From contig JAJEJC010000008.1 in assembly GCA_022828105.1 (NCBI GenBank), positions 186,001 to 250,000 on the forward strand: DNA of 64,000 bases. The letters run 5' to 3'. Positions 20,013 through 28,802 of this stretch are shown in pieces. Each line of letters begins with the position of its first letter. Position 1 is the stretch's first letter. The notes beneath the pieces were generated by a model. It worked only from the letters and a program-made list of their open reading frames with translations. It made no database searches and had not been told where the DNA came from. This DNA comes from Dehalococcoidia bacterium. GTDB taxonomy: Bacteria > Chloroflexota > Dehalococcoidia > Bin125. The position numbers and the translations under genes were made by a program.

Positions 20013-20104
20013 GCTCTCTTCCCCCGCTCCGCGGGCGAGATGTCGCTGCCCTGTCTGCTCTTCCCCTGCTTCGCGGGGGGAGATGCCGAAGGCAGAGGGG
20101 GGCC
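20013..20104. repeat. Palindromic intergenic repeat, copy 1
   Basis: Fills the gap between the YihY gene and proB. Contains a C-rich/G-rich hairpin (20021-20040, partial) and a second (20061-20081) followed by AGATGCCGAAGGCAGAGGGG. The second half is the reverse complement of copy 3 at 24.66 kb. Confidence 0.7.
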
Positions 20105-20115
20105 GGCTTGATCCC

Positions 20116-21243
20116 ATGACCGACGCCCAACCCCGCCGCATCATCTGCAAGCTGGGCACCAATCTGCTCACCGCCGGCGGCGACCGGCTCGATCCCGGCG
20201 TCCTCGAAGCGGTCGTCCGCCAGGTCGCCGAACTGCGCAACGCGGGCACACAGGTTACCGTGGTCACCTCCGGCGCCGTCACCGCTGGACGCGCCCGCGT
20301 CGGCGCGACCAACACTCGCTCCTCGGTCGGTGCGCGACAGGCCCTCGCCGCCATCGGCCAGGCCCAGCTCGTGCAGCGCTACGACTCGCTGCTCCAGCGC
20401 TACGGCCTGACCGCGGCGCAGGCGCTGATTACGCGCGGCGACGTGGCCGAGCGGCGCGGCTATCTCAACGTCCGCAACACGCTGCTCCGTCTGCTGCAAT
20501 ACGGCGTCGTGCCAATCATCAACGAGAACGATGTCGTCGCCGACGAGGAACTGCGCGGCGGCGCATTCGGCGAGAATGACGCCCTCTCCGCGCTGATCGC
20601 CAACCTGATCGACGCCGATCTGCTGATCCTGCTCAGCGATGTCGAGGGCGTCTACGACGCCGACCCCCGCGTCAACCCGGACGCTGGTCTGATCGACGTG
20701 CTGCACAACCCGATCTCGATGATCCGCGCCGCCGGCGATGTCGACGAACGCAGCCGCGGCGGGATGCGGGCCAAGCTCGAGGCGGCGCGCCGCGCTTCGG
20801 CCGGTGGAACGGAAGTCGTGATCGCCTCGGGCAACAAGCCCGACGTGATCACCCGCGTCGCCGGCGGCGAGCGGCTCGGCACGTTGATTCCCGCCGACAC
20901 CACCGTCCGCGACAGCCGCGAGCGTTGGCTTCTGGCCGGGCTGCACAACGGCGAGGGGCTCGACCTCGACTACGGCGCGGTGCGCGCACTGACCGAGCAG
21001 GGCCGCAGCCTGTTGCCGGCGGGCGTGGTCGGCGTGCGCGGCGAGTTCGAGCGCGGCGACATCATCCAGCTCTACGACCCCGAGCAGCGTCCCATCGCCG
21101 TCGGCATCAGCAACTACTCCTCCGCCGAGGCAGCCAAGATCCGCGGCAAGAACTCGTCCGAAATCCTCGACGCCCTGGGCTACTACTACGGCTCCTCGGT
21201 GGTGCATCGCAACAACCTGGCGCTGCTGCCGGTCAGCGACTGA
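20116..21243 (+). CDS. proB: Glutamate 5-kinase with PUA domain
   Basis: 375 aa. The amino-acid kinase fold is shown by RRIICKLGTNLL, VTSGAVTAGR, IINENDVVADEELRGGAFGE and NDALSALIANLIDADLLILL, followed by SDVEGVYDADPR. A C-terminal PUA domain (~residues 280-375) has GRSLLPAGVVGVRGEFERGD. It phosphorylates glutamate in the first step of proline synthesis, normally inhibited by proline. proA and proC are not adjacent. ATG 20116 lies 12 nt after repeat copy 1, with no obvious ribosome binding site. Divergent from the YihY gene. Confidence 0.95.
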   Translation: MTDAQPRRIICKLGTNLLTAGGDRLDPGVLEAVVRQVAELRNAGTQVTVVTSGAVTAGRARVGATNTRSSVGARQALAAIGQAQLVQRYDSLLQRYGLTAAQALITRGDVAERRGYLNVRNTLLRLLQYGVVPIINENDVVADEELRGGAFGENDALSALIANLIDADLLILLSDVEGVYDADPRVNPDAGLIDVLHNPISMIRAAGDVDERSRGGMRAKLEAARRASAGGTEVVIASGNKPDVITRVAGGERLGTLIPADTTVRDSRERWLLAGLHNGEGLDLDYGAVRALTEQGRSLLPAGVVGVRGEFERGDIIQLYDPEQRPIAVGISNYSSAEAAKIRGKNSSEILDALGYYYGSSVVHRNNLALLPVSD

Positions 21244-21291
21244 GCGTCGAATCGCGACCCGCCCGCTCTCGCCGCTGACTGGAGCGGCGGA

Positions 21292-21297
21292 TACGCT
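21292..21297 (+). promoter_or_regulatory. Leaderless-type -10 box (TACGCT) for the alpha/beta hydrolase
   Basis: TACGCT ends 6 nt before the ATG at 21304. Confidence 0.4.
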
Positions 21298-21303
21298 TCA
21301 GCC

Positions 21304-22182
21304 ATGACAGAACTCACCGACTATCCCGCATCGCAGATCTTCTTTTCGCAGCGGCTTCGGCTGCACTACGTCGATTGGGGCAATCCGACGGCGCCGGCGC
21401 TGATCCTCGTGCACGGCGGGCGCGACCACTGCCGATCCTGGGACTGGGTCGCCCTGGCGCTCAAGGATCGTTATCACGTGATCGCTCCCGACCTGCGCGG
21501 TCACGGCGACTCCGAGTGGGTCAACGGCTCCGGCTACGCAATGATCGATTATGTCTATGACCTCGCCCAGCTGATTCGCCAGAAGCATCTCGCGCCCGTG
21601 ACCCTGTTGGGCCACTCGCTGGGCGGCCGCATCTGCATCGAGTACTCGGGCGTGTATCCGGAGCGAGTAGCGAAGCTGATCGCGATTGAAGGTCTGGGAC
21701 CGTCGCGCCGCGAGACCGACATGCACTCCTCAGCGCCTGCGCACCAACGGATGACCGAGTGGATCTCCGAGCGGCACCGCTTCGCCGGCCGCCTGCCGCG
21801 CCGTTATCCAACGCTGGAGGACGCGGTCGAGCGGATGCAGGAGGCCAACCCGCGCCTGACCGCCGAGCAGGCCTTGCACCTGACCACCCATGCCGTGCAC
21901 CAGAACGAAGACGGCAGCTTCGTCTGGAAGTTCGACAACTACGCCCGCGGCCACTCGCCCTATCCATTCAATGAGTTGGACGCCGAGGAGATCTGGGAGC
22001 GGGTGACGATGCCGACGCTGCTGATCAGCGGCCTGGAATCGGCCGGCGACCCGAACCAGGACGAACGCACCCAGACATTCCCGACCGCGCGCAAGGTCGG
22101 CGTCGCCGACGCCGGCCACTGGGTCCACCACGACCAGATCGAATCCTTCCTCACCGAAGTCAACGACTTCCTCAATGGCTAA
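21304..22182 (+). CDS. Alpha/beta-fold hydrolase
   Basis: 292 aa. The fold is shown by LILVHGGRDHCRSWD (oxyanion HG), APDLRGHGDSEW, the nucleophile elbow GHSLGG and the final histidine in DAGHWVHHDQIE. The acid is probably the Asp in SAGDPNQDE. No signal peptide. The cap region (~residues 140-215) is helical and lacks features that would name the substrate; ester, epoxide or C-C bond hydrolysis are all possible. It stands alone between proB and the SsuD-like gene, with its own leaderless-type promoter. Confidence 0.87.
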   Translation: MTELTDYPASQIFFSQRLRLHYVDWGNPTAPALILVHGGRDHCRSWDWVALALKDRYHVIAPDLRGHGDSEWVNGSGYAMIDYVYDLAQLIRQKHLAPVTLLGHSLGGRICIEYSGVYPERVAKLIAIEGLGPSRRETDMHSSAPAHQRMTEWISERHRFAGRLPRRYPTLEDAVERMQEANPRLTAEQALHLTTHAVHQNEDGSFVWKFDNYARGHSPYPFNELDAEEIWERVTMPTLLISGLESAGDPNQDERTQTFPTARKVGVADAGHWVHHDQIESFLTEVNDFLNG

Positions 22183-22196
22183 ACACCATGCCTGTT

Positions 22197-22270
22197 CCTC
22201 TCTCCCCCCGCCCCGCGGGGAGAGATGCCGAAAGCCTGCCCCCGACTCGATCGGGGGGCAGAGGGGGGCT
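22197..22270. repeat. Palindromic intergenic repeat, copy 2
   Basis: Shares the C8/G-rich hairpin (22202-22222) and AGAGATGCCGAAAG with the other copies, but has an extra hairpin with arms TGCCCCCGA and TCGGGGGGCA (about 22237-22260) before the closing CAGAGGGGGG. It lies within the 134 nt between the hydrolase and the SsuD-like gene. Confidence 0.7.
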
Positions 22271-22303
22271 CCGAGTTGATGGAGCGGGCGGCAGCCCAAG
22301 ACG

Positions 22304-22309
22304 TACACT
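22304..22309 (+). promoter_or_regulatory. Leaderless-type -10 box (TACACT) for the SsuD-like/ASST pair
   Basis: TACACT ends 7 nt before the ATG at 22317. Confidence 0.4.
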
Positions 22310-22316
22310 TCGCCAC

Positions 22317-23447
22317 ATGACCGAGCCTCGTCCCGCTCCAAAGTTCAGTTGGTTCGTCCCGATCGACGGCGACGGCGACCGGATCGGCTCGTTGCGCGCG
22401 CAGCGGCCTCCGACGTTCGAGTACCTGCGCGACGTCGTGCTCAACGCTGAGCGGCTGGGCTACCACTCGCTGCTGATCCCGACCCGCTTCGCCAACGGCT
22501 CCTTCGAGCACGCCGCGCCGCTGGCCGAGACCTGGACCACGGCCACGGCGCTCTGCGCGGTCTCGTCGCGCATCCGTCTGCTGATCGCGGTCCGGCCGGG
22601 CATCACGCCGGTCGGACTGTTCGCGCAGCAGGCGGCGACGCTGCACGAGATTTCGGGCGGGCGGATCGACATCAACATCGTGCCGGGCGGCATCCAGGGC
22701 GACAACGAACGGCTCGGCATCTCGGGATCGCACGACGATCGTTACGCGCAGGCGGACGAATTCATCGACGCATGCGCGCAGCTCTGGGAGACGGGCGGTC
22801 CGCTGCAGTTCGAGGGCGAATCGGTCCGCCTCAACGGAGCGATCGTCTCGCCGACGCCGTCCCCGCCCGCGCCCGAGTGGTACCTGGGCGGCGCATCGGA
22901 CTCGGCGCTGCGGTTGGCCGCGTCTCGCGCCGACGTGCTGCTCTGCTGGATTCAACCGCCCGAGCCGATGCAGGCGCTGCTCGACCGCACCCGCGACGCG
23001 TTCGCGCTGGCAGGACGCACGCCGCGATTCGGTCTGCGCACCCACCTGGTCGTCCGCGACACGGAAGCAGAGGCCTGGAACGCCGCGGCGGAGCTGCTCT
23101 CGGAGGCGCATTCCGACGTGCTGGCCCAGCGCGCGGCGGCGGTCAAGTCGACGGCGATGGTCGGCGCGGCGGCTCAGGCTCGGCGGGTCGAGGACGACCG
23201 GCTGGGCGAGCGGCTCTGGAACGGCATCTCGCGCGTGCGGGTCAACCTCGGCACGGCGATCGTCGGCACGCCGCAGCAGGCGGCCGACGAACTCTCCGCC
23301 TACCGGCGGATGGGATTCGACGAGTTCATCCTCTCCGGCTATCCGCACCTGGAAGAAGCGGAGCGGATTGCGCGGGACGTGATCCCGCTGGTCTCGGCGT
23401 CCGAGCCGGCCCCAAGTCTCAGCAGCAGTGGCGACGCACGGAGATAG
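22317..23447 (+). CDS. LLM-class flavin monooxygenase, alkanesulfonate monooxygenase (SsuD)-like
   Basis: 376 aa TIM-barrel FMNH2-dependent enzyme. FSWFVPIDGDGDRIG, FEYLRDVVLNAERLGYHSLL and the long conserved segment RIRLLIAVRPGITPVGLFAQ are close to SsuD, which cleaves C-S bonds of alkanesulfonates to sulfite and aldehyde. Also present are GGRIDINIVPGG and LSGYPHLEEAERIARDVIPL. No flavin reductase (ssuE) or ssuABC genes are adjacent, so electron supply must come from elsewhere. It is followed at 3 nt by an arylsulfotransferase-fold gene, and the two likely form one transcript concerned with organosulfur compounds. The exact substrate is inferred. Confidence 0.85.
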   Translation: MTEPRPAPKFSWFVPIDGDGDRIGSLRAQRPPTFEYLRDVVLNAERLGYHSLLIPTRFANGSFEHAAPLAETWTTATALCAVSSRIRLLIAVRPGITPVGLFAQQAATLHEISGGRIDINIVPGGIQGDNERLGISGSHDDRYAQADEFIDACAQLWETGGPLQFEGESVRLNGAIVSPTPSPPAPEWYLGGASDSALRLAASRADVLLCWIQPPEPMQALLDRTRDAFALAGRTPRFGLRTHLVVRDTEAEAWNAAAELLSEAHSDVLAQRAAAVKSTAMVGAAAQARRVEDDRLGERLWNGISRVRVNLGTAIVGTPQQAADELSAYRRMGFDEFILSGYPHLEEAERIARDVIPLVSASEPAPSLSSSGDARR

Positions 23448-23450
23448 CGC

Positions 23451-24647
23451 ATGGGTTGGCCGATTCATCGTCCGCTGGGGTTGACGCATCACGAGCCGTC
23501 GCGCTCGTGCAAGGGCTACACGCTGGTCTGCGGACTGGGCGCGCAGGACGCGGTACTGCTGGATATGCAGGGCCGCATCGCGCATCGCTGGCACTTCCCC
23601 GACCGACGCCTGTTCAACGTCGAGCTGCTGCCCAACGGCAACCTGCTGGCGATGGTCTCGCCGCTGACCCCGCCTCCGCCTCGGACCGGCGAGAACGTCA
23701 CCCGGTTCAGCCTCGATCCTGGCGCGCCGCCCGACACCTTCAACTTCCTCGGCGGCCGCGGCGTCGGACTGCGAGAACTGGACTGGAACGGCGAGGTCGT
23801 CTGGGAGTACGAGAACGAGGCGATCCACCACGACTTTCACCGCTGCGAGAACGGCCACACGATCTTCCTTGAGTGGGTCGCGATGCCCGAAGCCGTGAGC
23901 GACGCGGTGCTGGGCGGCGGCCAGCTGCCCGACCAGCCCGCGCCGCCGACGATGATCGGCGACGACTTCGTCGAAGTCGATGCGTCGGGCGAAGAGGTCT
24001 CGCGGATTCATCTCTGGGAGGCGCTGACGCCCGAGGATGCGCCCAAGTGCCCGCTCGAGCACCGTTGGGAGTGGACGCACACCAACAGCATTGAGCAGTT
24101 GCCCGACGGCGGCCTGCTCTTCTCCTCGCGTGATACGAGCATCGTCGGGATTGTCGATCCGCCGAGCGGGGACCGTCCGGCCTCGCTGCGCTGGAAGTTC
24201 GGCTGGCCCGAGATCTCGCACCAGCATCACGCCAACAGGCTCAACGACGGCCGCATCCTGATCTACGACAACGGCATGCACCGGCTGCAGGACTTGAGCT
24301 ATTCGCGGATCGTGGCGGTCCATCCCGAGACCGACCAGGTGGACGTGATCTACCAGGGCGTGCCGAGAGAGCAGTTCTTCTCGGCGCACATCTCAGGTGT
24401 GTCGCAACTGTCCAACGGCAACTTCCTGGTCACCGAAGGCGCGGCGGGGCGGCTGTTCGAGATCGACGGGCGCGGCCAAGTGGTCTGGGAATGGGTCTCG
24501 CCGTTCCAGGTCAAGCAGCGCGGCGACACCTGCAACTGGGTCTTCCGCGCCTGGCGCTACGACCCGGAGTTCTCCGGCCTGGCCGGTCGGGAACTGAGCG
24601 CCGATCGGTATGCGGCGTTCAATGGGTTGCACGGGCTGTCGACGTAG
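23451..24647 (+). CDS. Arylsulfotransferase (ASST)-family beta-propeller protein
   Basis: 398 aa. Repeated His motifs in blade-like segments identify the family: HHDFHRCENGHTIFLEW, EWTHTNSIEQLPDGGLLFSS, QHHANRLNDGRILIYDNG and SGVSQLSNGNFLVTEG. ASST transfers sulfate between aryl esters and phenols via a covalent sulfo-histidine. Unlike the periplasmic DsbL-partnered enzymes, this one has no signal peptide, so a cytosolic location is suggested. It starts 3 nt after the SsuD-like gene. The family also contains members of unknown activity, so transferase activity is inference. Confidence 0.8.
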   Translation: MGWPIHRPLGLTHHEPSRSCKGYTLVCGLGAQDAVLLDMQGRIAHRWHFPDRRLFNVELLPNGNLLAMVSPLTPPPPRTGENVTRFSLDPGAPPDTFNFLGGRGVGLRELDWNGEVVWEYENEAIHHDFHRCENGHTIFLEWVAMPEAVSDAVLGGGQLPDQPAPPTMIGDDFVEVDASGEEVSRIHLWEALTPEDAPKCPLEHRWEWTHTNSIEQLPDGGLLFSSRDTSIVGIVDPPSGDRPASLRWKFGWPEISHQHHANRLNDGRILIYDNGMHRLQDLSYSRIVAVHPETDQVDVIYQGVPREQFFSAHISGVSQLSNGNFLVTEGAAGRLFEIDGRGQVVWEWVSPFQVKQRGDTCNWVFRAWRYDPEFSGLAGRELSADRYAAFNGLHGLST

Positions 24648-24654
24648 TGCGTAG

Positions 24655-24710
24655 GAGCCCCCCCCCCTCTGCCTTCGGCATCTCCCCCCGCAAAGCGGGG
24701 GGAGAGAGGA
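24655..24710. repeat. Palindromic intergenic repeat, copy 3
   Basis: Reads, in order, a C-tract, the stem TGCC-TTC-GGCA and a large hairpin with arms CTCCCCCCGC and GCGGGGGGAG around AAA. It sits between the 3' ends of convergent genes (ASST and acetyltransferase), so it could act as a bidirectional terminator-like element. Orientation is opposite to copy 1. Confidence 0.75.
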
Positions 24711-24712
24711 CG

Positions 24713-25300
24713 TTACGAGCCCGAGCGGGGGGACTTCATTCGCCGGGTGGCGATCAGCAGGTCGTGGGTCTTGCCGTCGGCGTCGATCACGTAGTCCCAG
24801 AGCACGGCCTCGCGCTGGAAGCCGAGCCGCCGGAAGACGGACTGTGCGGCGGCCTGGTCGAGCACCATCCGCGCGGTCAGGAGCTGCAACTCGAGCAGTT
24901 GCGCGATGGCGTAGATTTCCTCGGCCAGCACGCGCCCGAGTCCGCGCCCGCGGGCGTTGGGCGAGAGCAGCAGACGAATCTCGCCGAGATGGCGGGTCCA
25001 GTCGGCGGAGGAGTAGTTGAGGTCGCCCTCGCCGAGCAGTTCGTCGCCGTCGAAGCCGAGCACGGTGAAGGTGCGCTGCGTCTCGACTTCGCGCATCCAC
25101 TCGTCCACCGACGCGCGCTGGGTGATGTCGCGGCGCAGGAAGAGCAAGTCGTCGGAGGGCAGCGAGCGGGCGAAGTCGAGGATCAGCTCCTCGTCGCCGG
25201 GCGCCATCAGACGCAGGTTGATGCGGTGTCCGTCGCGCAGGGAAGCGGAACGGGGGTAACGAACGGCGATCTGCTGCTGGGCGCCGGATGAGTCGGCCAT
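24713..25300 (-). CDS. GNAT-family N-acetyltransferase
   Basis: 195 aa from ATG at 25300 (an earlier in-frame start would add unrelated residues). The GNAT core is seen in LRLMAPGDEELILDFARSL, GEIRLLLSPNARGRGLGRVL (acetyl-CoA P-loop R-G-x-G-R) and AQSVFRRLGFQREAVLWDYV. The pattern resembles RimI/protein-modifying or small-amine acetyltransferases; the acceptor is unknown. GAGAGGC precedes the start. It lies downstream of the oligopeptide-binding lipoprotein gene but a terminator-like hairpin separates the two. Confidence 0.87.
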   Translation of the reverse strand: MADSSGAQQQIAVRYPRSASLRDGHRINLRLMAPGDEELILDFARSLPSDDLLFLRRDITQRASVDEWMREVETQRTFTVLGFDGDELLGEGDLNYSSADWTRHLGEIRLLLSPNARGRGLGRVLAEEIYAIAQLLELQLLTARMVLDQAAAQSVFRRLGFQREAVLWDYVIDADGKTHDLLIATRRMKSPRSGS

Positions 25301-25400
25301 GCTGGCGAGCCTCTCAGGATGGTCGGAGTGTGTGAATTTCCGCACGAACTCGGTGGAACTGATTGCCACAGAATATAGACGCGGATCGTCACAGACAGCG

Positions 25401-25428
25401 AAAGAGCGCCCCATTCGCTGGAGCGCTC
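25401..25428 (-). terminator. Rho-independent-like terminator after the peptide-binding lipoprotein gene
   Basis: On the minus strand GAGCGCTCC, a 7-8 nt loop, GGGGCGCTC then TTT: a 6-bp GC stem plus one mismatch, followed by a short T-run. A second palindrome GGCCCGCAGCGGGCC at 25448-25462 lies just upstream, immediately after the stop codon. Confidence 0.5.
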
Positions 25429-25465
25429 AATCGCGTGGTTTACGTTCGGCCCGCAGCGGGCCGCC

Positions 25466-27445
25466 CTAGGCGCGGTCGCCGGGGAAGTCGGGGTGGCTGG
25501 TGTCCATCCAGACCTCCTTGCGCCAGTGCCAGCCCTCGCGTTCCCAGACATTCAGGCTGCGCTCCGGGACGTTGACGTAGGGCCAGTAGATTCCGGTGTC
25601 GATGCCATTGCCCATGATCGCGAAGTCGGCAAAGCCTTCGACTCCGTAGCGCTCGTCTTCTCCGAGCAGGATGTAGGTCACCTCATTCGCCATTTCCCTG
25701 CGAGCCTCGGCATCGAGGGTCACCTTCATGGTCTTGACGATGTCTTCGACCGGTTTGAAGTTGTAGTGAGTGAGGTTGCCGGAGGCGCCAAACACCAGTC
25801 GCGAATTCCACTCGCCGGTTGGGTCGCCGGTGCCGGCGCCCACCCAGATTGGGAACTGGCCCGGATAGCGGCCCTCGGTCAACCGCTGAGTGATTCCGTC
25901 GTAGGGGAGCAGTTCGATGTTGACCGAAATGTCCAGGGCGCCTTCGTACATGCTCCGGTAAAGCTCGGAAGAGCCCGGGTAGAGCCCTTCGAAGATGTCG
26001 GCCACGATCATCGGATAGTTGGTTCCTGCTGCAACACCGGCGGCGTCCATGAGCTGGCGAGCGGTGGCGATGTCTTCGTCCTTGGTCGGCCGATAACCAG
26101 GCAGCGTGCGCATCTCTTCCTGGGGTATCGACCATCCGTGGTACCAGTTGATGTGTTGCTGGGTCGAGGGTTTGCCCTTGCCCAGATACACCGCGTCGAT
26201 GATCGTGTCGCGGTCCATGACCAGATGGAAGGCGTACGGCACTCGCCGGTCCAGCCAGGGGTTCTCGTCCCATTCCTGGTTGTAGTTGAATCGCATCGCC
26301 AGCGGCAGCACGACGCCGCGGTCGTAGCGGATGTGGTCGGGGAAGTCTGCTTCGACGCCCTCAATCGCCACCGCGTTGCCCGAGAAATCGTCGAGCGCTC
26401 CCGTACGGTATGCGGTCTCCTGCGCCGTTGGATCGCCGAGGAATCGCCAGGTCAGGCTGTCGAGGAATGGAAGCTGTTGACCGTCGAGCGTCTGCCAGAA
26501 GTCCGGGTTGCGGACCATGTGGATGTGACTCTCGGGGGAGAACTCGGTGGGGATGAAGGGGCCGACGCCGGACATCAGCTCGACATTGGTCTGCTCGTCG
26601 ATCCACTGCTGGTCCCAGAGTTCGAGCGCCTCGATCGACGTCATGAACGAGTACCCCATGTGGGTGGTTTCGAGATAGGTCGCGTTGGGCCCGTTGGTCT
26701 TGCAAATCAGCGTGTCCTCGTCGGGCACGTCCATTGAGGCCGTGTCCTGGTACAGCGCGGCGCGCCAGAATCGCGCATCGGGTTGACCACTGGCGTCCAG
26801 GGAATCGATCTGGCGTTGGATGTTCGCCTCGGCGTCGCTAGCGGTGAAGGTGCGACCACCCTCAGTCGGATACCGGTCCCAGAACTTCGCGCCCTGGTCG
26901 AAGCGGAAGATGTAGGTCTCGTCGTCCGGAATCTCGGGCAACGAGGCAATCGAGGCGGCGTAGACCGGTCCCTGGTTGTTGTAAATCTGGTTGAGCCGCA
27001 TCAGCGTGTCGTTGAAGACCTGGAACGGCGTCGCCAACTGCACGCGGTGCGGGTCGAACCCATCCCAGTTGGGAACGATATTCAGCGTGTAGTTGCCGCC
27101 GTACTGCCGCACGGCCGCAGCCTGCACCGCTTGCTGTTGCTGCTGTTCCTGTTGCTCGGCGGGCGTGGCTTCCTGCTGGGCCTGCTGCTCGGCCTGTTGT
27201 TCCGCCTGCTGCATCTGCTGCGGTTGCTCGGCCTGCTGCTGAGCCTGCGGTTGATCCTGCTGTTGCTGCTGCTGGACCTGGGCGGCAGCCTGTTGCTGTT
27301 GCTGCTGGGCGTCGTCGTCATCGTCGCCGCAGCCGACGAGTGCGAGGCCTGCCGCGCCGACGCCGGCGCGGCCCGAGGCCCGCAGAAGGGCGCGGCGGCT
27401 CATTCTCGATCGGCGCATCCGTTGCCAGTAGTTCCTGCGTTCCAT
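25466..27445 (-). CDS. Oligopeptide/nickel-type ABC substrate-binding lipoprotein with Gln-rich linker
   Basis: 659 aa from an ATG preceded by AAGGAG. The N-terminus combines a twin-arginine motif (SRRALLRAS) and a lipobox (LVGC), so it is probably a Tat-exported lipoprotein. Residues ~45-110 are almost entirely Gln/Ala with Glu and Pro, a long flexible tether. The mature SBP_bac_5 fold (PF00496) follows: GGNYTLNIVPNWDGFDPHRV, YIFRFDQGAKFWD, EFSPESHIHMVRNPDFW and DRRVPYAFHLVMDRDTI. It captures a ligand outside the cell for an ABC importer, but no permease or ATPase gene adjoins. The upstream LLM gene is 60 nt away on the same strand. Confidence 0.9.
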   Translation of the reverse strand: MERRNYWQRMRRSRMSRRALLRASGRAGVGAAGLALVGCGDDDDDAQQQQQQAAAQVQQQQQQDQPQAQQQAEQPQQMQQAEQQAEQQAQQEATPAEQQEQQQQQAVQAAAVRQYGGNYTLNIVPNWDGFDPHRVQLATPFQVFNDTLMRLNQIYNNQGPVYAASIASLPEIPDDETYIFRFDQGAKFWDRYPTEGGRTFTASDAEANIQRQIDSLDASGQPDARFWRAALYQDTASMDVPDEDTLICKTNGPNATYLETTHMGYSFMTSIEALELWDQQWIDEQTNVELMSGVGPFIPTEFSPESHIHMVRNPDFWQTLDGQQLPFLDSLTWRFLGDPTAQETAYRTGALDDFSGNAVAIEGVEADFPDHIRYDRGVVLPLAMRFNYNQEWDENPWLDRRVPYAFHLVMDRDTIIDAVYLGKGKPSTQQHINWYHGWSIPQEEMRTLPGYRPTKDEDIATARQLMDAAGVAAGTNYPMIVADIFEGLYPGSSELYRSMYEGALDISVNIELLPYDGITQRLTEGRYPGQFPIWVGAGTGDPTGEWNSRLVFGASGNLTHYNFKPVEDIVKTMKVTLDAEARREMANEVTYILLGEDERYGVEGFADFAIMGNGIDTGIYWPYVNVPERSLNVWEREGWHWRKEVWMDTSHPDFPGDRA

Positions 27446-27505
27446 GGTTCGCTCCTTCACCTGGCCGTCCTGAACGGCTCGCATCCTTGCGAGCTGTTTG
27501 AGTGG

Positions 27506-28657
27506 TTAGTCGCCGCCGGCCGCGGCGAGCAACCCGACCTCTTCGACCGCGCCGAAGTCGGGCAGGCGGGTCAGCGGAGCCTTGTCCGGCTCCTCGAAGG
27601 CGGGCATGACCTCGGCGGCGAAACGGCGCAGCGATTCAAGAATCTTCTCGTGCGGCACGACCTGGTCGAAGTTGATCAGGAAGACCATGCGGTCGACGCC
27701 GATCGCCTCCCATTGGCGCAGCGCGTCGATGACGGTTTCGGGATTGCCGATCGGCGTGCCCTGCTGGAGCGGGTTGATCACGTCGCCGGGCCGGTTGCGA
27801 AGCTGGATCGCGCTGGCCTGCGAGCTGTAGGCCGGCGAGGGGTAGATGCTGCCCACGCCGACGAGATGCGCGGCGGCGCTCATGAACGCGGCCGCGCCGG
27901 CGCCGCCCAGGGCGAGCGCTTCCTCGTCGGTGTCGCCGCAGTACATCCAGCCAACGCCGTTGACCTGGTTGTTGACGAACTTGCCCACCGGGTCGGCGTT
28001 GCGGATCACGCGGCGGTAGTCGGCGATCCGCTGTTCGTACTGGTCGGGCGTGCCGATCGAGACGCCGAGCAGGCCCATGCCCCGCTCGGCGGCCTGGATG
28101 GCGGTCTCGGGGCTGGACACGGCGACCCACATCGGCGGGTGCGGCTGCTGGACGGGCTTGGGCAGAATGGCGCGCTCCGGCATCGAGAAGTACTTGCCGT
28201 CCCAGCCGGCGATCTCGTTGGTCCACATGTGGGGAATGGCGCGGATCACTTCATCCCACATGTCCTTGGTGTCGTCGGGTTCGACCTGGAAGCCGCCCAA
28301 CTCGGTCCAGGTCGCGGCGCGGCCGGTGCCGAACTCGAGGCGTCCGTTGGAGATGATGTCGAGCGCGGCGGCGCGCTCGGCGACGCGGGCCGGATGGTTG
28401 ACCTGGGGCAGACAGAGCGCGATGCCCTGGCCGATGTGGATGTTCTCGGTCATCGCCGCGGCAGCGGAGAGGAAGACCTCGGGCGCGGAGGAGTGGCTGT
28501 ACTCCTCTAGGAAGTGGTGCTCGACCTCCCAGACCTGGTCGAAGCCGAGTTCGTCGGCGAGGCAGATCTGCTCCAGCGCCTGGTGGTAGGCGCGCCACTC
28601 TGAGATCTCGGTCCAGGGCCGCTGCACGGAGTGCTCGTAGAAGATGCCGAATTTCAT
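27506..28657 (-). CDS. LLM-class flavin monooxygenase (luciferase alpha-like)
   Basis: 383 aa. MKFGIFYEHSVQRPW, LADELGFDQVWEVEHHFLEE, NHPARVAERAAALDIISNGR and LEFGTGRAATWTELGGF place it in the bacterial luciferase-like family, using FMNH2 or F420 and O2. The start at 28657 gives the canonical MKFGIF; an earlier in-frame ATG adds 15 unrelated residues. The 60-nt gap to the peptide-binding lipoprotein gene suggests an operon in which the lipoprotein brings in a substrate that the enzyme oxidises; that link is inference. Confidence 0.87.
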   Translation of the reverse strand: MKFGIFYEHSVQRPWTEISEWRAYHQALEQICLADELGFDQVWEVEHHFLEEYSHSSAPEVFLSAAAAMTENIHIGQGIALCLPQVNHPARVAERAAALDIISNGRLEFGTGRAATWTELGGFQVEPDDTKDMWDEVIRAIPHMWTNEIAGWDGKYFSMPERAILPKPVQQPHPPMWVAVSSPETAIQAAERGMGLLGVSIGTPDQYEQRIADYRRVIRNADPVGKFVNNQVNGVGWMYCGDTDEEALALGGAGAAAFMSAAAHLVGVGSIYPSPAYSSQASAIQLRNRPGDVINPLQQGTPIGNPETVIDALRQWEAIGVDRMVFLINFDQVVPHEKILESLRRFAAEVMPAFEEPDKAPLTRLPDFGAVEEVGLLAAAGGD

Positions 28658-28802
28658 GTCAGTCTCGCTGCTCGTGGCGTGGAACGGATGGCGGAATCCC
28701 ACGCCTGTTGCACGCCTTCCGATGCGGAGCGTCGGCGTGCGAAGATGCTAGCATTCTGACCGCGCTGCCGCGCGTACGCGTGAGTGGAAGGCGAGAGACA
28801 GG

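Follow-up and report, generated by a model that had tools for sequence, protein, structure and literature searches.

The window analysed here is a stretch of 64,000 nucleotides (nt) from the genome of a Dehalococcoidia bacterium (assembly GCA_022828105.1; 2.74 Mb in 10 contigs, 97% complete), and the subject of this analysis is a pair of adjacent genes within it, which we call P1 and P2 and which are predicted to encode a flavin-dependent monooxygenase and an arylsulfate sulfotransferase (ASST)-type protein, respectively (table 1). P2 lies downstream of P1, the intergenic gap being 3 nt. The G+C fraction at the third codon position is 0.886 in P1 and 0.879 in P2, as opposed to 0.45-0.71 in the shifted frames, and both thus look like real genes; we interpret an opposite-strand frame of 736 amino acids (aa) at 22179-24389 as a spurious frame of the kind that commonly shadows a gene with a high G+C content. 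Comparison with related genomes gives good support to the notion that P1 and P2 constitute a conserved bicistron behind a putative leaderless-type promoter.

Table 1. Coordinates of the features of the P1-P2 locus, counted from the first nucleotide of the window.
Feature	Position	Strand	Evidence
P1: group C flavin-dependent (luciferase-like) monooxygenase, SsuD/MsuD branch, 376 aa (predicted)	22317..23447	+	PF00296, NCBIfam, fold match, aligned residues
P2: short arylsulfate sulfotransferase-type beta-propeller, 398 aa, without apparent signal peptide (predicted)	23451..24647	+	PF05935, PF14269, fold match, aligned residues
TANNNT box TACACT, -10-like, putative leaderless-type promoter of P1-P2	22304..22309	+	7 nt before the ATG of P1; conserved in relatives
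Shine-Dalgarno-like GGAG of P2, within the 3' end of P1	23440..23443	+	Shine-Dalgarno-like motif in 14/16 sequences

All 15 readable starts of P1 are preceded by a TANNNT box at a distance of 6 or 7 nt from the ATG, i.e. those in the window and in 14 relatives, which are mutually related and not independent (the in-frame ATG closest to the aligned start was used in each of them, with a shift by three codons in L038 and L048). As a background, the window contains 1438 ATG triplets, of which only nine are preceded by a box of this kind at 5-8 nt. A box at exactly 7 nt is no commoner across the 64 kb than expected by chance (two found, 3.0 expected), so it is its conservation among relatives that carries the evidence for the promoter. 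A Shine-Dalgarno-like motif lies at most 18 nt from the start of P2 in the window and 13 of 15 relatives, the exceptions being L034 and L038. Since the alpha/beta hydrolase gene upstream of the pair (21304-22182) has a TANNNT box of its own, we take the transcription unit to comprise P1 and P2. A scan of 21200-25500 for sigma-70 promoters and terminators yielded no candidates, no RNA family matches the window at the gathering score, and the GC-rich stretch preceding P1 is not predicted to fold more strongly than shuffled sequences do (z -0.92). P1 and P2 would be transcribed as one unit from the leaderless-type promoter, and the ribosome-binding site of P2 would lie within the 3' end of P1.

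A simple hydropathy scan revealed no strongly hydrophobic N-terminal stretch in either protein: over residues 1-60, the highest 11-residue value reaches 0.5 in P1 and 1.3 in P2, compared with 2.1 in a neighbouring lipoprotein-like control. Four neighbouring genes were scanned, encoding the alpha/beta hydrolase, a GNAT protein, a family 5 solute-binding protein (SBP) and another luciferase-like protein (LLM2), and there is no ssu gene among them, nor were the genes of the Escherichia coli ssuEADCB order seen as neighbours of P1. Several features of the locus that had been proposed in an earlier, sequence-only reading of this DNA are borne out by these results, namely two frames 3 nt apart at just these coordinates (confirmed by family matches and codon G+C), the leaderless-type promoter (with the box at 6-7 nt in 14/14 relatives with a readable start), the lack of an apparent signal peptide on both proteins and, as far as the four scanned neighbours are concerned, the absence of ssuABC and ssuE beside the pair.

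P1 matches the Bac_luciferase family (PF00296) with an E-value of 3.8e-60. Its nearest NCBIfam model is that of SsuD (TIGR03565), with a score of 270.1 bits falling under the curated equivalog cut-off of 518.2 bits; also under their cut-offs are the scores with the models of the dimethylsulfone monooxygenase SfnG (TIGR04021; 164.4 versus 382.95 bits) and the pyrimidine monooxygenase RutA (TIGR03612; 85.4 versus 498.3 bits). By sequence and fold alike, the closest solved relatives of P1 are the two-component, group C enzymes MsuD (the best fold match, 4e-30) and SsuD, which are 33-38% identical to it in the fold search and share with it the fold, the SGYPHLEE motif, the sulfonate-binding Trp and two Arg residues, and His228; P1 differs from SsuD in about nine extra residues around positions 58-72. 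Sulfoquinovose monooxygenase (PDB 7oh2 and 7olf), which we take to be SmoC, belongs to the same branch and is farther from P1 than MsuD (28-30% identity in the fold search); no sulfosugar gene occurs among the four scanned neighbours. The residues W211, R241, H243, R308, Y342 and H344 are kept in P1, and W211, R241 and R308 are invariant in all 13 rows of the P1 alignment. W195, R225 and R296 of MsuD are reported to bind methanesulfonate, and none of the three alanine mutants of these residues gave measurable sulfite (PMC8234197).

We searched a sample of 400 Chloroflexota genomes, with at most four or five candidates scored per genome, and classed sequences with an E-value below 1e-150 as P1-type. 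Outside the family of the window's genome, P1-type genes were found in two genomes of the sample (G382 and G244), and another genus of the family, represented by G017 (79% complete), has P1 at 66% identity; the P1-type status of these three sequences is based on identity (58-66%) and shared residues, not on a tree. All eight P1-type rows keep the equivalents of W196, R226, H228, R297 and H333 (W211, R241, H243, R308 and H344 in P1), as do E. coli SsuD and the SsuD-like rows of G185, G137, G336 and G297, whereas the full set is absent from RutA, LLM2, the two aligned paralogues from the window's own genome and the two rows of G172. At the aligned columns P1 has W/R/H/R/H where the (very divergent) RutA row has F/L/M/N/F. 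A tree of 19 luciferase-like monooxygenase (LLM) rows, in which six of the 16 inner branches have good support and two rows are very long, supports a group of the P1 rows of two genera, g1 and g2 (the window's genus and its sister genus); a clade joining these with G017, G382 and G244 is not supported by it.

P2 scores 68.0 bits (1e-18) with PF05935 and 56.7 bits (3.3e-15) with PF14269, exceeding the respective gathering cut-offs of 24.2 and 27.0. Its structure model is a beta-propeller with a mean pLDDT of 90.1, and the six best fold matches of the model are all entries of Cpz4 (best 2.2e-16; PDB 9kf4 and 9kf6) and E. coli AssT (best 1.1e-12; PDB 3elq and 4p04). AssT is 15-17% identical to P2 and differs from it in the length of the chain (571 residues versus 398) and in P2 having no apparent signal peptide; given this difference in length, the N-terminal beta-sandwich that AssT possesses (PMC13426309) is presumably missing from P2. 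A profile of 11 P2 orthologues aligns H259 with AssT H436, H210 with H356, N212 with N358 and R227 with R374, so that equivalents of all four AssT residues are present, and all four are invariant in the 11 rows; the entry of the H436N mutant (4p04) aligns at the same place as H259. In an alignment of 18 rows reaching down to 32% identity, H259, N212 and R227 are still invariant and H210 is nearly so. The roles of these residues at the ASST site, with His436 as the nucleophile acting together with His356, Asn358 and Arg374, are those given in the same source (PMC13426309). Judged from the aligned sequences, P2 keeps the putative ASST nucleophile as H259. The earlier assignment of P2 to the ASST fold is thus right at the superfamily level, and those of its expected catalytic histidines that can be aligned are indeed kept.

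The linkage of the two genes was surveyed by an order-level search of 20 genomes (the window's own, 14 congeners and five from other genera of the family; E-value cut-offs 0.001 for P2 and 1e-30 for P1). P2 is present in 16 of them, comprising the window's genome, all 14 congeners and one of the five others, and P1 stands directly upstream of it, on the same strand, in all 15 relatives with P2 (cut by the contig end in G007). The stop of P1 and the start of P2 are 2-28 nt apart in the 13 relatives measured, with G007 and the frameshifted G005 standing outside this count. A search of the window's genome yielded one match for P2 and, with P1 itself counted, 21 for P1, whose closest paralogue is 33% identical; the closest named records of P2 are 87-92% identical and come from metagenome-assembled genomes of Dehalococcoidia, Chloroflexi or Chloroflexota. 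A single frame of 788 aa in G005 (L045 = G005:C29:2443-4785) was considered as a natural P1-P2 fusion and rejected after comparison with G007: the frame results from a one-base difference near the C-terminus of P1, which destroys the conserved end of P1, and is most likely due to an indel or an assembly error.

The explanation that we consider the best, and that we offer tentatively, at somewhat short of an even chance, is that P1-P2 is a lineage-specific organosulfur unit combining cleavage of C-S bonds by P1 with sulfuryl transfer by P2, a mechanism that the active sites make plausible. We infer the two chemistries from the families to which the proteins belong; a substrate or pathway common to both is a guess. 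P1 would be a two-component FMNH2-dependent monooxygenase in which W211, R241 and R308 hold the sulfo group of the substrate (R-SO3-), and oxygenation of the carbon next to this group would release sulfite. The reduced flavin would be supplied by a reductase encoded elsewhere: the genome has four PF01613 proteins and one PF03358 protein, with one flavin reductase gene located close to another LLM gene (C5:157514 and C5:155573), and a missing nearby ssuE is therefore not odd. Two frames of the sulfite/nitrite-reductase family (NIR_SIR), with two matched stretches each, could take up the sulfite. P2 would act in the cytoplasm, taking a sulfuryl group from an aryl sulfate and passing it on to a phenol or an alcohol in two steps via sulfated H259. 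Most likely, the two enzymes would help to degrade organosulfur compounds imported by the cell, P1 by opening C-S bonds and P2 by transferring or removing O-sulfo groups; the genome also encodes one sulfatase.

A number of observations weigh against this interpretation, some of them concerning the active site of P1. We take His11 and Cys54 to belong to the SsuD active site; Cys54 is missing in all eight P1-type rows, and Asp replaces His11 in the seven rows reaching that position (D17 in P1). The sulfonate-binding loop with the consensus RGGA (PMC8234197) reads RVN[L/C] in all eight rows (RVNL in P1). The structure model of P1 is weak (mean pLDDT 69.5), and what we say of this protein rests on its sequence. 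The context of P1-type genes elsewhere does not point to sulfur release either: in G017, the place behind P1 that P2 occupies in the window's genus is taken by two frames of the same orientation that are MaoC-like by eye (L119:2388-4580), and in G382 the P1-type gene sits between MetE-like and GFO/IDH/MocA oxidoreductase genes (L144:6893-10200), 4 nt behind one of them and overlapping the other. Moreover, a genome-wide search with an SsuA-family model gave two hits in the window's genome, of 63 and 34 bits, both under the cut-off of 163.5.

The changes at the active site and the neighbours in G017 and G382, together with the scores lying under the cut-offs of the models (270 versus 518 bits for SsuD, 164 versus 383 for SfnG), would be accommodated if P1 did not desulfonate at all, its Trp and two Arg residues binding another oxyanion (a carboxylate, a phosphonate or a sulfate ester) and the whole clade oxidising another compound. 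We consider this unlikely, given that the equivalents of the five SsuD residues are retained in every P1-type row and the set is lacking in RutA and LLM2, and that the SsuD-like rows of G185 and G297 lack His11 as well, so that its loss alone says little. P1 thus likely binds a sulfo or similar oxyanion group in an altered pocket, as its aligned residues suggest, but SsuD activity cannot be claimed for it. Its previous description as SsuD-like is accurate at the level of the superfamily and does not extend to SsuD proper, from which it departs in the score and in His11, Cys54 and RGGA.

As for P2, H127 from the invariant HHD motif is probably the counterpart of AssT H252, with the reservation that it was placed there by position only, the local alignments stopping short of it, and AssT Thr501 has no assigned counterpart. 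The best match of P2 both by fold and by sequence or profile is the biosynthetic ASST Cpz4, yet the two are only 16-18% identical. Cpz4 belongs to an antibiotic pathway, the biosynthesis of caprazamycin, and prefers sugar hydroxyls (both according to PMC13426309). By analogy with it, and with the oxygenase gene being first in order, P2 might sulfate a hydroxylated (phenolic) product of P1, in detoxification or biosynthesis instead of breakdown. This appears rather improbable to us, since the four scanned neighbours (hydrolase, GNAT, solute-binding protein, LLM2) include no hallmark gene of biosynthesis and P1 keeps the site that binds the sulfo group in MsuD (PMC8234197). We know of no monooxygenase partner of the P1 type for Cpz4.

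The remaining observations opposing the organosulfur unit concern the linkage itself. Ten genes from IleRS to DegV (the names IleRS, YihY, ProB and DegV were assigned by eye) have a conserved order in the relatives with P2 over the extent of the stretches fetched, with the exception of the solute-binding protein gene, missing in L040 and L044; since the surrounding genes are largely syntenic too, linkage within this group is weak evidence for shared work. In the genomes sampled farther away, the two genes were found apart. G017 has no P2 at E 0.001, and at the cut-offs used neither gene was detected in three other genomes of the family (G016, G018 and G019). Outside the family, close P2 homologues (E-value below 1e-80) occur in G172, G232, G069 and G100, and no genome of the 400-genome sample has both a P1-type gene and a close P2 homologue. 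The last three of these genomes have no match to P1 at 1e-30, and the SsuD-like proteins of G172 are at most 39% identical to it.

The neighbourhoods agree with this. We fetched 20 stretches around P2 homologues, several ending at contig ends, searched all of them for P1 by tblastn and listed the open reading frames (ORFs) of four; within these stretches, no SsuD-type gene adjoins any of the four close P2 homologues, and the only match to P1 is a 29.5% identical luciferase-like stretch in L092 (from G172), located about 4.4 kb off on the other strand. A further set comprised seven stretches, with ORFs listed for three (L144-L146); the contig of G244 starts within P1, leaving the upstream side outside the sequence. 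G382 and G244 do have more distant ASST-like proteins, encoded on contigs other than those of the P1-type gene. In what was sampled, the pairing is thus confined to two genera, g1 and g2, and the broad conservation across Chloroflexota that the sequence-only reading proposed to check was not found in it. Neither of the two results named by that reading as refuting it occurred: the pair is linked in 15/15 relatives with P2, and the ASST-fold protein keeps those catalytic histidines that can be aligned.

P1 and P2 might accordingly be co-transcribed without sharing a substrate, as unrelated catabolic genes that came under one promoter by chance of gene order in a region syntenic throughout a young group. 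We regard this as a serious possibility, albeit a doubtful one: it is favoured by the preserved gene order, the different neighbours of P1 and P2 elsewhere and their non-overlapping genome sets outside the family, whereas the type of both active sites, which is that of enzymes handling sulfo groups, and the spacing of the genes speak against it. Of five junctions measured between genes on one strand, only P1-P2 stays within 200 nt throughout (0/15 above this value), wider spacing being found in 5/11 cases for ProB-hydrolase, 4/14 for hydrolase-P1, 1/12 for GNAT-SBP and 2/10 for SBP-LLM2. The value is also exceeded in 2/14 cases for P2-GNAT and 1/12 for LLM2-DegV; IleRS-YihY and YihY-ProB do not exceed it (0/10 each), but there the genes are on opposite strands. 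The tight spacing adds a little to the evidence from linkage. With each gene found without the other outside the genus and its sister genus, and with the neighbours syntenic, linkage alone nevertheless says little on shared chemistry, and the earlier interpretation of the pair as handling sulfonated or sulfated aromatic compounds is, as a whole, partly supported.

A bolder version of a shared pathway, which we think very improbable, would have the sulfo group serve as a handle: P2 would sulfate an alcohol or a phenol, and P1, with the sulfo-binding residues kept and the details of the SsuD pocket lost, would then oxygenate the carbon bearing the sulfate ester. If true, this would represent a flavin-dependent oxidative cleavage of sulfate esters fed by a cytoplasmic sulfotransferase independent of 3'-phosphoadenosine 5'-phosphosulfate (PAPS), i.e. 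a flavin counterpart of AtsK, an iron-dependent alkylsulfatase.

In the P1-P2 pair, known types of enzyme occur in a new combination. The 21 matches to P1 in the window's genome resemble the expansions of FMNO paralogues reported from SAR202 and other Chloroflexota, and members of the alkanesulfonate type are known in SAR202 (PMC5395668 and PMC6946804); the word "sulfotransferase" does not occur in the main text of these two papers. In the open library searched, we found no description of a gene pair of an SsuD-type monooxygenase and an ASST, as judged by titles and the beginnings of abstracts, no co-mention of Chloroflexota with an arylsulfotransferase and, among the papers listed, none of SAR202 with it. 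Most ASSTs are described as having no identified natural acceptor and poorly understood cellular roles (PMC13426309), and substrates of monooxygenase paralogues in Chloroflexota are described as not predictable with certainty, a statement made of Baeyer-Villiger-type ones (PMC5395668). A conserved bicistron with both enzymes narrows the search, as a sulfated or sulfonated compound active with one of them is the first candidate for the other. In addition, the pair draws attention to a set of enzymes that are related to SsuD but have an altered sulfonate loop, and their chemistry is open to direct testing.

Some further features of the surroundings deserve mention. In three relatives (G010, G006 and G015) a gene that is of a lipoprotein or repeat type by eye lies between the hydrolase gene and P1 (L040:5790-6856, L046:10339-11385 and L048:10359-12122); it was not counted as a part of the unit. 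Just downstream of the pair, on the minus strand (25466-28702), the gene of the family 5 solute-binding protein adjoins that of the luciferase-like monooxygenase, the two occurring together in the stretches of 10 of 15 relatives, and they possibly make up an uptake-oxidation pair of their own. Finally, a REP-like GC-rich repeat with the core GGGGAGATGCCGAA is present on both flanks of P1-P2, at 20077-20090 (+), 22219-22232 (+, one mismatch) and 24674-24687 (-). These three matches (up to two mismatches allowed) compare with 0.8 expected in the window, and 5/100 shuffles reach three; the repeat is also present in several related loci (L026, L027, L035, L036 and L043), and 22 of 157 loci, some of them overlapping stretches, contain exact copies.

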